DNA of 38,480 nt, from IMG/VR virus record IMGVR_UViG_3300042146_000011, positions 1 to 38,480 of that record. One strand, 5' to 3'. Positions 28,557 through 37,410 of the stretch are shown here, piece after piece (within the stretch, counting starts at the first letter, position 1; each line of letters starts with the position of its first letter). The notes beneath the pieces are model-generated. The model did no database searches and was not told the origin of the DNA. It was given only the letters and a program-made list of their open reading frames with translations. Source of the DNA: a virus. The translations under genes and the position numbers were made by a program.

Positions 28557-28798
28557 GTGAAACATTAGGTAAGGTAGAACAATTCTTGGAAGAAAAGTCC
28601 AAATCGGACGTCAAGAAGGTCATCAAACGCTACAACATCATCAACATCCCGTTCGGTCTGATCTTCGGTATCCTGTGGGGTATGGGTGTGATTGTCGCAA
28701 AAGGCTTCTTGGCGACACTTGCTGCATTCTTCATTCCGTTCATCGGTCCTGCGATCAGCGTGATGTGGTTGCTGGAAAAGTTTGCAGGGGTTAGTTAA
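28553..28798 (+). CDS. Small two-span membrane protein
   Basis: 81 residues. A charged N-terminal helix (1-28, LGKVEQFLEEKSKSDVKKVI) precedes two hydrophobic segments, about 31-52 (NIPFGLIFGILWGMGVIVAK) and 53-75 (LATLAAFFIPFIGPAISVMW). It starts within the ligase stop codon and ends within the start of the zinc ribbon gene (TAATG), so all three are translationally linked. No family recognised; a membrane role early in infection is all that can be inferred. Confidence 0.72.
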   Translation: MSETLGKVEQFLEEKSKSDVKKVIKRYNIINIPFGLIFGILWGMGVIVAKGFLATLAAFFIPFIGPAISVMWLLEKFAGVS

Positions 28799-29064
28799 TG
28801 GCGCTGTATGACTATCATTGTAAGGCGTGCGAACATCGTTGGGAAGGCGTCTACTCGATTGCCAACCGCAAGAAGCCTGAATCTGAGCCGTGCCCTGAGT
28901 GCGGTGCAATGCAAGTGATGCAAGCAATCACCTCTGCATGTATCGGTTACACTTACAAGACGGCCAGTGTAAAGACCACTGACAGCTTCAATGATCGCAT
29001 GAAAGAGATCAAAAAGAAGTTGCCACCGAAGTACCAGGACAACCTCAGTAACATCATTCGGTAA
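28798..29064 (+). CDS. FmdB-like zinc ribbon protein
   Basis: 88 residues. The N-terminal 40 residues form a zinc ribbon: YDYHCKACEHRWEGVY gives the first CxxC (with CxxCxHxW spacing) and SEPCPECGAMQVM the second, the pattern of FmdB/CxxC_CxxC_SSSS regulatory proteins. The rest is a basic helical tail (DRMKEIKKKLPPKYQDNLSN). Such ribbons bind nucleic acid or RNA polymerase. It ends the ligase operon; its stop codon overlaps a late-promoter-like AATAAATA. Confidence 0.8.
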   Translation: MALYDYHCKACEHRWEGVYSIANRKKPESEPCPECGAMQVMQAITSACIGYTYKTASVKTTDSFNDRMKEIKKKLPPKYQDNLSNIIR

Positions 29065-29070
29065 TAAATA
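29063..29070 (+). promoter_or_regulatory. T4-type late promoter on the plus strand
   Basis: AATAAATA followed by GG, overlapping the TAA stop of the zinc ribbon gene. The only thing between it and the terminator 70 nt on is an 8-codon ORF. Confidence 0.5.
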
Positions 29071-29104
29071 GGTTTACACACTAAAACAAGATAAGGATCA
29101 TGTC

Positions 29105-29131
29105 ATGACTGACATCGGAATCGAAGAATAA
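29105..29131 (+). CDS. 8-codon micro-ORF in a short late unit (tentative)
   Basis: ATG at 29105, TAA at 29129-29131; product MTDIGIEE. AAGGA ends 7 nt before the ATG, a good spacing. It lies between the late promoter at 29063 and the terminator at 29142. It could be a true micropeptide, a leader peptide, the remnant of a deleted gene, or chance within a small RNA. Length alone gives no support for coding. Confidence 0.3.
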   Translation: MTDIGIEE

Positions 29132-29141
29132 GAAAACTTTA

Positions 29142-29175
29142 GGCTCTAGCTGAATTCTCGGCTAGGGCCTTTTTT
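29142..29175 (+). terminator. Strong intrinsic terminator
   Basis: GGCTCTAGC (29142-29150), 10-nt loop, GCTAGGGCC (29161-29169) with one G-U pair, then TTTTTT. It ends the ligase operon and the short late unit. Confidence 0.9.
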
Positions 29176-29237
29176 GTAGTCTAAGTAAATCAAAGAAGCC
29201 CAAAACTATCGCAGTTGGATAAAATAAGGTGTACGCC

Positions 29238-30026
29238 ATGTCAAGTAACGCACGCTTCAAACGCGAAACCCGTAAAGAACGTCGTGATTCAGAACGCGCA
29301 AGCAAGAACCCAGCGCCACAGCGTGGGAAACCTTCTGCAAACGACAGCACTACTACTGGTGAATCACTTGAGTATGAATATAAGCCTGCTGCTACAAAGA
29401 AACTCGAACCACTGACTGATGGTCAAGCAATTCACATCGCAGCCCTGCTGCATGACGACATTGTGATCTCCATCGGCTCGGCTGGTACTGGTAAGACTTA
29501 TCTGTCAGCGGCTGTTGCTGCTGAGCTGTATAAGAATGGGATGGTCAAGCGCATCATCATGTCCCGTCCACCAGTTGAGGTTGGACCGAAACTCGGTTAC
29601 TTGCCTGGTGATATTGACGACAAGTTCGCTCCTTACCTTGAACCATTCAAGGCTGGACTGATTGATCGTCTTGGCTCAAACAAGTTTAAATGTGACTACA
29701 AGTCGCGTATACTTGCCAAGCCACTCGCTTACATGCGTGGTGCGACTTTTGATGATGCGGTGATGTTGCTCGACGAAGCGCAGAACACTTCTGTTGCTGA
29801 GATGAAAATGTTCCTGACTCGTGCAGGTACTAATTCGAAGATCTTCATCAGCGGTGACGTCAATCAAACTGACCTGGGCTCTAAGGAAACTGGTCTGTCG
29901 TGGCTTGTGCGTCAAATCACGAAGCGCAACAAGGCTATTGAAATCGTTCGCTACACCCGAGAAGATTGCATCCGCTCTGGTTTGTGTGCTGACATGCTTG
30001 AACTCATCGAAAACGAGGTTGCATAA
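29238..30026 (+). CDS. phoH: PhoH-like ATPase
   Basis: 262 residues from ATG at 29238 with AAGG 9 nt upstream; an in-frame GTG three codons earlier is rejected. A basic low-complexity N-terminus (1-50) precedes the PhoH core: Walker A GSAGTGKT (80-87), RIIMSRPPVEVGPKLGYLPG, Walker B VMLLDEAQNTS, and ISGDVNQTDL. PhoH is an ATPase with likely RNA helicase or nuclease-coupled activity; it is common in marine phages, where its role is debated. It starts its own unit after a terminator. No promoter was recognised. Confidence 0.93.
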   Translation: MSSNARFKRETRKERRDSERASKNPAPQRGKPSANDSTTTGESLEYEYKPAATKKLEPLTDGQAIHIAALLHDDIVISIGSAGTGKTYLSAAVAAELYKNGMVKRIIMSRPPVEVGPKLGYLPGDIDDKFAPYLEPFKAGLIDRLGSNKFKCDYKSRILAKPLAYMRGATFDDAVMLLDEAQNTSVAEMKMFLTRAGTNSKIFISGDVNQTDLGSKETGLSWLVRQITKRNKAIEIVRYTREDCIRSGLCADMLELIENEVA

Positions 30027-30027
30027 T

Positions 30028-30054
30028 ATGCGTGAAGAATATGAAGGTCTCTGA
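30028..30054 (+). CDS. 8-codon micro-ORF after phoH (tentative)
   Basis: ATG at 30028, two bases after the phoH stop, TGA at 30052-30054; product MREEYEGL. GAGG lies 9 nt upstream. Another short frame (ATG 30041 to TAA 30073) overlaps it. Both lie before the terminator at 30082. Support is only position and the SD-like sequence. Confidence 0.2.
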   Translation: MREEYEGL

Positions 30055-30081
30055 CGAAAGGCCTGACATCTAACCACAACA

Positions 30082-30108
30082 AACCCTGAGCAATCAGGGT
30101 TTTTACTT
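30082..30108 (+). terminator. Intrinsic terminator after phoH
   Basis: AACCCTGA (30082-30089), GCAA loop, TCAGGGTT (30094-30101), then TTTACTTT. Confidence 0.82.
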
Positions 30109-30941: not shown

Positions 30942-31505
30942 ATGAGCACTCAATTGAAGGTGCTGGCTGTGTGGGCGTTACTGGTGTTTGGTGCTAACAT
31001 AGTACCATCGCAGAGTGAAGCATTATCCCTCACACCAAACACCGTCCCCGTTGAACTTAAAGTTGATCTGAAACAATCCAGTGTAACAAAGCCTGAAGTG
31101 TGTTATGCTAACGTCCAGTGTCGCAAGCTAGCTGAAGCTGTCTTCTTTGAAGGTCGCGGTGAGCCAGTAAAGGGCCAGTACGCAATAGCATACACGATCA
31201 TTAATCGGAGAGATTCAGGTAAATATGCCGATGATGTTCACGGCGTTGTCAATCAGAAACGTCGAGGTATTTGCCAGTTCAGCTACATGTGCCAAATCAA
31301 AGCTAAAGACCGTCGAACGGCCATCGGTAACGATGATCAATCGTGGCAGAAGGCGTTAGATGTGGCATACAACACCTACTTCTATGAAGCAGCCGACCCT
31401 ACAAAGGGTGGTGAGTTCTTTCATACGAAGAAAGTGAAACCGATCTGGCGACATCAGTTACAACCTGCTTTGGCATTGGGTAATCACATTTTCTATAGGA
31501 GTTGA
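30942..31505 (+). CDS. Secreted SleB/CwlJ-type cell-wall hydrolase
   Basis: 187 residues. An N-terminal signal segment (KVLAVWALLVFGANIVPSQS, ending near SEA at about 27) suggests export. From about 60 the Hydrolase_2 core appears: LAEAVFFEGRGEPVKGQYAI with the catalytic Glu, YTIINRRDSGKYADDVHGVV, CQFSYMC, and a closing GGEFFHTKKVKPIW. Family members cleave peptidoglycan glycan strands. It lies in the early operon, unlike the late GH19 endolysin at 35757, so it may act in entry, superinfection exclusion or wall remodelling. Four Cys could form disulphides outside the cytoplasm. Confidence 0.85.
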   Translation: MSTQLKVLAVWALLVFGANIVPSQSEALSLTPNTVPVELKVDLKQSSVTKPEVCYANVQCRKLAEAVFFEGRGEPVKGQYAIAYTIINRRDSGKYADDVHGVVNQKRRGICQFSYMCQIKAKDRRTAIGNDDQSWQKALDVAYNTYFYEAADPTKGGEFFHTKKVKPIWRHQLQPALALGNHIFYRS

Positions 31506-31946: not shown

Positions 31947-32171
31947 ATGTACAAAGACGCAAACGAGTTCAGCCTTTATATCGAAGGCTTGAAAGAGGAA
32001 AAGGCATTCGATACCTACACAGAAACAATCGTGTGGTTTTACACGAATGAAACTGACCATGAGATGCCTGAGATCGCGAAGATGCTCAACAGCAAAATCA
32101 TTGGTTGTATCGAGAACGAAGCGTCGGCAGCGGGCTTGCTGAAAGACACGCCAGGTGTGAGGTTGATGTAA
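31947..32171 (+). CDS. 33: Late transcription co-activator gp33 (short form)
   Basis: 74 residues (T4: 112). In T4, gp33 bridges RNA polymerase and the gp45 clamp to activate late promoters. The pattern matches the T4 C-terminal half: a helix with TETIVWFY, then MPEIAKMLNSKIIGCIENEA and a LLKDTPGVRLM end, equivalent to the IPSGIIEKIQSEA...LLRPS region of T4. Similarity is weak but synteny helps: genes 33, 59 and 32 are neighbours in T4, and here they occur in that order with two small genes between 33 and 59. GGAG lies 8 nt before ATG. Confidence 0.7.
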   Translation: MYKDANEFSLYIEGLKEEKAFDTYTETIVWFYTNETDHEMPEIAKMLNSKIIGCIENEASAAGLLKDTPGVRLM

Positions 32172-37373: not shown

Positions 37374-37381
37374 GCTAAATA
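37374..37381 (+). promoter_or_regulatory. Candidate late promoter for gp54
   Basis: GCTAAATA on the plus strand, 44 nt before the gp54 start. Two mismatches to TATAAATA. It faces the minus-strand late promoter at 37403. Confidence 0.5.
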
Positions 37382-37402
37382 ACAGATGTGTATATTCTCT
37401 AG

Positions 37403-37410
37403 TATTTATA
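37403..37410 (-). promoter_or_regulatory. T4-type late promoter for the lysis unit
   Basis: Exact TATAAATA on the minus strand, 46 nt before the gp2-like gene. Confidence 0.75.

Follow-up and report, generated by a model that had tools for sequence, protein, structure and literature searches.

Dual-function small RNAs that contain a short ORF are known from Spot 42/SpfP and SR1/SR1P, and leader-peptide attenuators include the trp type and MgtL, the latter with an acidic leader. In T4-type phages, late promoters use gp55, gp33 and gp45 and carry the box TATAAATA. According to an excerpt of PMC1524935, late promoters were found exclusively upstream of genes orthologous to T4 late genes; the excerpt also describes phage morons as promoter-ORF-terminator inserts.

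The locus analyzed here resembles each of these systems in part. It shares with T4-type late promoters the sequence of its box, the presence of similar boxes before structural genes of the phage group and a gp33 gene, but here the box is followed only by a micro-ORF and a terminator. Like the dual-function small RNAs it is a unit of ~100 nt with its own putative promoter, a short ORF and a terminator; however, its Rfam scores are 18.5 against a gathering threshold of 45 for SR1 and 17.1 against 80 for Spot 42, and no base-pairing target was seen. The short acidic ORF located closely 5′ of a terminator and a gene is reminiscent of leader-peptide attenuators, from which the unit differs by its separate predicted late promoter and by the absence of a predicted antiterminator fold. 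Finally, the unit is moron-like as an autonomous promoter-ORF-terminator cassette between genes, but its ORF has only 8 to 15 codons, its promoter appears to be a phage late promoter, and it is kept at one locus in several lineages.

The window, i.e., the whole stretch of DNA that was analyzed, comprises 38,480 bases of a record classed as virus. The gene order on its + strand is ligase, small membrane protein, FmdB-type zinc ribbon, the unit, phoH, exonuclease, endolysin and gp33-type late coactivator. The features of the region are as follows.

28798..29064, + strand: FmdB-type zinc-ribbon gene, 88 aa (Pfam PF09723, E 8e-10; PHROG 385, E 8e-12)
29063..29070, + strand: putative T4-type late promoter box AATAAATA, predicted +1 at 29076
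29076..29175, + strand: predicted short late transcript, from the box spacing (PMC1524935, excerpt) and the terminator
29092..29097, + strand: Shine-Dalgarno (SD) sequence TAAGGA, a 6-nt match, 7 nt 5′ of the ATG at 29105
29105..29131, + strand: 8-codon micro-ORF MTDIGIEE, stop codon TAA at 29129-29131
29141..29176, + strand: intrinsic terminator, 13-bp stem at 29141-29170 (7 G-C), loop of 4, T6
29238..30026, + strand: phoH, conserved downstream gene (Pfam PF02562, E 4e-61)
30041..30073, + strand: second micro-ORF MKVSDERPDI with TAA, directly 5′ of the next terminator, without a late box
30081..30107, + strand: terminator 3′ of the second micro-ORF
31947..32171, + strand: gp33-type late-transcription coactivator (Pfam PF16805, E 3e-12)

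The layout is that of the original prediction, which had described a late-type box overlapping the stop codon of the zinc-ribbon gene, a strong terminator 70 nt downstream and, between them, only an 8-codon ORF with a well-spaced AAGGA. The TAA of the FmdB-type gene (29062-29064) shares its last two bases with the box, the distance from the box end to the 13-pair stem is 70 nt, and AAGGA is found at 29093-29097. In T4 the box lies at −13 to −6 (PMC1524935, excerpt), so that transcription would start at 29076 and yield an RNA of about 99 to 100 nt, in line with the 95 to 100 nt initially proposed. There is also an ATG further 5′, at 29100; its frame has two codons (M-S-stop), and its stop codon overlaps the start codon of the 29105 micro-ORF as ATGA. 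Two other candidates were rejected. Sigma-70 promoter matches numbered 7, among them one on the + strand at 29073-29101, versus 7.3 expected by chance, and a read-through extension of FmdB would be out of frame in the window.

The motif statistics of the box, its variants in other phages and the presence of gp33 in the window make late activity of the 29063-29070 box a well-founded prediction. The window contains 7 copies of WATAAATA, against an expectation of 1.1. TAAATA is the most frequent of its 15 letter arrangements in Pseudomonas phage pf16, and it ties with TATAAA for the top rank in the window. The start of an ORF of at least 60 aa is found 20 to 75 nt 3′ of TAAATA at 11 of 16 sites in the window and 26 of 31 in pf16, a share that tops those of all other arrangements; ATAAAT, which comes closest, overlaps the motif itself. 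Late boxes of the group, for which NNTAAATA is the form in pf16-like phages, are often 5′ of structural genes, and their two leading letters vary (TA, CA, GA, AC, GC). The same freedom exists in T4-like phages, including CTAAATA in Aeh1, according to an excerpt of PMC1524935. AATAAATA and the orthologous GCTAAATA, ACTAAATA and GATAAATA are 8-bp boxes related to TATAAATA, and an excerpt of the pf16 paper reports the perfect TATAAATA three times (PMC5587285). T4-type late machinery is represented by the gp33 homologue in the window and by an annotated late sigma factor in pf16. In the contigs of two more distant relatives, L121 and L122, an ORF start lies at the same distance from 5 of 25 and 4 of 15 TAAATA sites, respectively, and the motif is not enriched, so that the box is without independent validation in those two.

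We searched for relatives in IMG/VR and a phage collection using FmdB, ligase and phoH. The box-to-terminator unit was found at this locus in four divergent lineages, namely the window clade, pf16, L121 and L122/L123. The window clade includes L002, L003, L004 and L006, plus L005 with L033, two contigs from one metagenome with 15 nt in common at their ends. All four lineages have the gene order ligase, membrane protein, FmdB and phoH, with the box between the last two, and FmdB identity to the window is 68% in pf16, 53% in L121 and 55% in L122. The box is AATAAATA in the window, GATAAATA in L005, GCTAAATA in pf16, ACTAAATA in L121 and GATAAATA in L122. Its position relative to the FmdB stop codon varies by lineage, showing that it is not forced by the FmdB codons. 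The stem begins 70, 78, 68 and 69 nt past the box end in the window, pf16, L121 and L122, respectively. The idea that related phages would have the same promoter, spacing and hairpin was thus borne out, with box-to-stem distances of 68 to 78 nt. The terminator is maintained by structure, since L006 alters both sides of one stem pair in a compensatory manner; pf16, L121 and L122 have hairpins of other sequence at the same place. At the sequence level, the box, its match to the late boxes of the group, the terminator, the ribosome site and the retention of the arrangement in four lineages are direct observations. Judged by this comparison, the finding is real and the arrangement conserved.

Other FmdB-phoH loci served as controls. 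Three (L008-L010, of which L008 was examined) have no box and a terminator about 20 nt past the FmdB stop codon, and twelve more have no box and a terminator some 30 to 45 nt past it, by eye. L066 has no box, and a scripted search gave no terminator there, while in L124, L125 and L127, three of five such loci inspected, there is no box and phoH follows FmdB immediately. As the control loci mostly keep the terminator without the box, the FmdB-phoH terminator is widespread, and only the pf16-like group, among the loci examined, has the box together with the extra 50 nt. Viral contigs searched with ligase, phoH and FmdB yielded no lineage past the four, and a search of genome contigs with the FmdB alignment yielded no relative. 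Two of seven pattern matches, L025 and L026, were out-of-frame chance hits and were dropped. No full or longer gene was found at this place among the relatives' loci examined. Since the unit is kept in four lineages and no relative has a full gene, the decayed gene that had been offered as the alternative is unsupported, and the recurrence of the unit at the same place in pf16 relatives makes a dead remnant unlikely.

The combination of elements is rare within these genomes. Only 1 of the 16 TAAATA sites of the window, that at 29063, has a terminator within 150 nt 3′ of the box. In the first 150 kb of pf16, this is the case only at the orthologous site 92022 and at 54318, where the hairpin begins 2 nt past the box. 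A micro-ORF with an SD sequence adjoins a terminator at only two places in the window (29105 and 30041, among 9 terminators found) and two in pf16 (92057 and 26050, among 47). The chance of TAAATA occurring within the 15-position stretch at the FmdB stop codon is 0.15 to 0.6% per genome, values that are not independent, given the relatedness of the four lineages. Taken by itself, the ORF is weak evidence, as one of at least 7 codons is present in 23.5% of shuffled window interiors, and in 2.6% with an SD match of at least 4 nt; across lineages, these proportions are 16 to 34% and 1 to 7%. There is no annotated gene in the corresponding stretch of pf16, a phage that can be grown on a laboratory host. 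Gene callers drop ORFs of 8 to 15 codons.

The micro-ORF encodes MTDIGIEE in the window, MTDIGCDE in L002-L004, MTDIGCEE in L006, MIDIGSQE in L033 and MKEMSIGSQEIGCDE in pf16. The pf16 peptide holds both pentapeptides, IGSQE, also found in L033, and IGCDE, also found in L002-L004. Three of three nucleotide changes in IGSQE between pf16 and L033 are silent (P 0.004), as are two of two in IGCDE plus the stop codon between pf16 and L004 (P 0.025); the segments for these codon tests were picked after the likeness had been seen, and the P values for silent changes are therefore optimistic. IGxxE, with the third and fourth letters as in the relatives, has no other occurrence in the window or pf16, and the micro-ORFs of both have a 6-nt SD match. 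Within the window clade, silent change is not preferred (P 0.27 to 1.0; 0.62 for window/L004 and 0.27 for L033/L004). Over 220 nt, L002 and L004 each show 3 differences from the window and L003 shows 4; three of the differences fall in two adjacent micro-ORF codons at 29120-29125. Both codons are replaced relative to L004, CD to IE, with three differences within 7 nt (chance P 0.002). L121 and L122 have unrelated 8-codon ORFs, MIRHLLEN and MSHFNGTN, whose SD matches are 3 and 0 nt long, respectively.

The second micro-ORF lies in the phoH-exonuclease gap (region 30028-30073 in the window, 92966-93030 in pf16, where the micro-ORF is at 92997). It reads MKVSDERPDI in the window and L002-L004, MNEEEWVDDERPDI in L006 and MHDERPDI, with AGGAG, in pf16. 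In DERPDI plus the stop codon, 5 of 5 nucleotide changes between the window and pf16 are silent (P 0.0001), and so are 6 of 6 between the window and L006 (no case in 40,000 trials). The module is lost in L033, which has only MHEEYEGF. In the window and L002-L004, the second micro-ORF is frame-broken from an upstream MREEYEG, a related form of which is read through in L006. No such micro-ORF was seen in the inspected stretch after phoH in G001 and G002, the contigs of L121 and L122. That this neighboring micropeptide has been kept through silent changes helps the peptide reading of the unit. Of the two roles first suggested, small RNA or micropeptide messenger, the codon evidence within the window-pf16 group favors the latter, and the terminator is the only RNA structure found; the peptide, however, is not conserved in L121 and L122.

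Our best reading, to which we give slightly less than an even chance, is that the unit is a late micropeptide messenger, conserved as a self-contained late unit in pf16-like phages of the T4 type. Transcription would start from a gp55/gp33-dependent late promoter that overlaps the FmdB-type gene at its end, giving an RNA of about 100 nt that stops at its own terminator 5′ of phoH. The RNA would be translated into an acidic micropeptide of 8 to 15 residues, with a C-terminal IGxxE in the window-pf16 group, and the micropeptide may act in trans on some target. We infer late firing of the promoter, the RNA end at the terminator, and production and trans action of the peptide. If expressed, the unit would be one of the smallest autonomous genes in a T4-type phage and would show that micropeptide genes missed by ORF statistics can be found from a promoter, spacing and terminator that are conserved together. 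A search on late phage micropeptides found nothing in the paper collection used. A broader proposal, which we consider speculative and rather unlikely, is that pf16-like phages carry a set of acidic, terminator-adjoining micro-ORFs, with IGxxE in front of phoH under a dedicated late promoter and DERPDI in front of the exonuclease, and that small peptide modules are gained and lost. Their role would be that of dedicated late effector peptides, the smallest of any phage, or of ribosome-gated switches through which ongoing translation opens the terminator to the gene that follows.

A leader ORF with an attenuator before phoH is a possible third option that the original prediction did not name. 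Read-through of the RNA polymerase into phoH would then depend on a ribosome at the micro-ORF, and the acidic nascent peptide may tune the ribosome, as in MgtL. The gap between stop codon and stem is 3 to 9 nt in the window, pf16 and L121, within reach of a terminating ribosome, but short gaps of this kind are common at ordinary gene ends, and the gap reaches 25 nt in L122 and about 28 nt between the second micro-ORF of pf16 and its hairpin. phoH is located downstream in all four lineages, no promoter was recognized between the terminator and phoH, and the succession of micro-ORF and terminator is repeated in the phoH-exonuclease gap. However, a dedicated upstream late box would be superfluous for such a mechanism. 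Single-sequence folding predicted no antiterminator fold exclusive with the terminator, although gating by the ribosome only needs none. Altogether, we regard translation-gated attenuation of phoH as unlikely.

It also seems improbable that the RNA or the transcription event matters rather than the peptide, whether as an untranslated late small RNA or as leaky late read-through supplying phoH, exonuclease and endolysin. L121 and L122 keep box, spacing and terminator even though the interior sequence cannot be aligned across lineages, and the + strand of the window has no other TAAATA from 29063 to the endolysin start at 30942. Against an untranslated RNA, the interiors minus the terminator fold like shuffled sequences (z 0.12 in the window, −0.44 in L121, 0.72 in L122, −0.54 in pf16 and −1.29 in L033), and no structure other than the terminator was found in those five. 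Rfam gave no family at gathering, its three matches of 15.9 to 18.5 bits all being below threshold. No antisense target was found in the window, where the longest complement is 10 nt per strand and shuffles reach 9 to 15 nt. A candidate conserved hairpin at the start codon, AUGUCA-UGAC-UGACAU, was discarded, as its stability does not exceed that of shuffles and it was not seen in pf16. As for read-through, a promoter serving phoH would be expected 3′ of the terminator.

Least probable, and in our estimation very unlikely, is a late-like box that together with the terminator of the upstream operon happens to flank a meaningless or decaying micro-ORF: such ORFs do arise in shuffled interiors at the 16 to 34% given above, the neighboring micro-ORF is frame-broken in the window and L002-L004 relative to L006, and the FmdB-phoH terminator also exists without the box, but box, spacing and terminator are jointly retained in four lineages, changes at IGSQE, IGCDE and DERPDI follow a silent pattern, and no relative has a longer gene here.

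Additional observations concern the gene next to the unit and the late boxes elsewhere in these genomes. In L017-L021, which comprise Ackermannviridae and Vibrio phage Bakedbeans, a small gene is found directly 3′ of the FmdB-type gene; annotation makes it a gp33-type late coactivator in L018-L020, as do PHROG matches in L017 and L018. The FmdB-gp33 adjacency in L017-L020 suggests a link between FmdB and late transcription. The possibility that the unit replaces the gp33 gene found 3′ of FmdB in Ackermannviridae was ruled out, as the gp33 gene of the window sits elsewhere. An extended box form, TAAATAGGTTTA, is common to several late boxes (29063 and 7248 in the window, 92022 and 18653 in pf16, 22340 in G002). 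At 37374-37410 in the window, two late boxes on opposite strands point towards each other, their predicted start sites separated by about 10 nt or less; the arrangement is retained at 100316-100343 in pf16. At 1377 in the window and 68884 in pf16, both on the − strand, a late box has a hairpin directly behind it, within the leader of the gene that follows (portal in pf16); the stem sequence differs between the two and the fold seems retained by eye. The pf16 late boxes at 49576, 69466 and 102269 lie within inverted repeats, by eye, so that a hairpin over the start could form in early read-through RNA and not in late RNA, as is known for T4 gene e according to an excerpt of PMC3014915.
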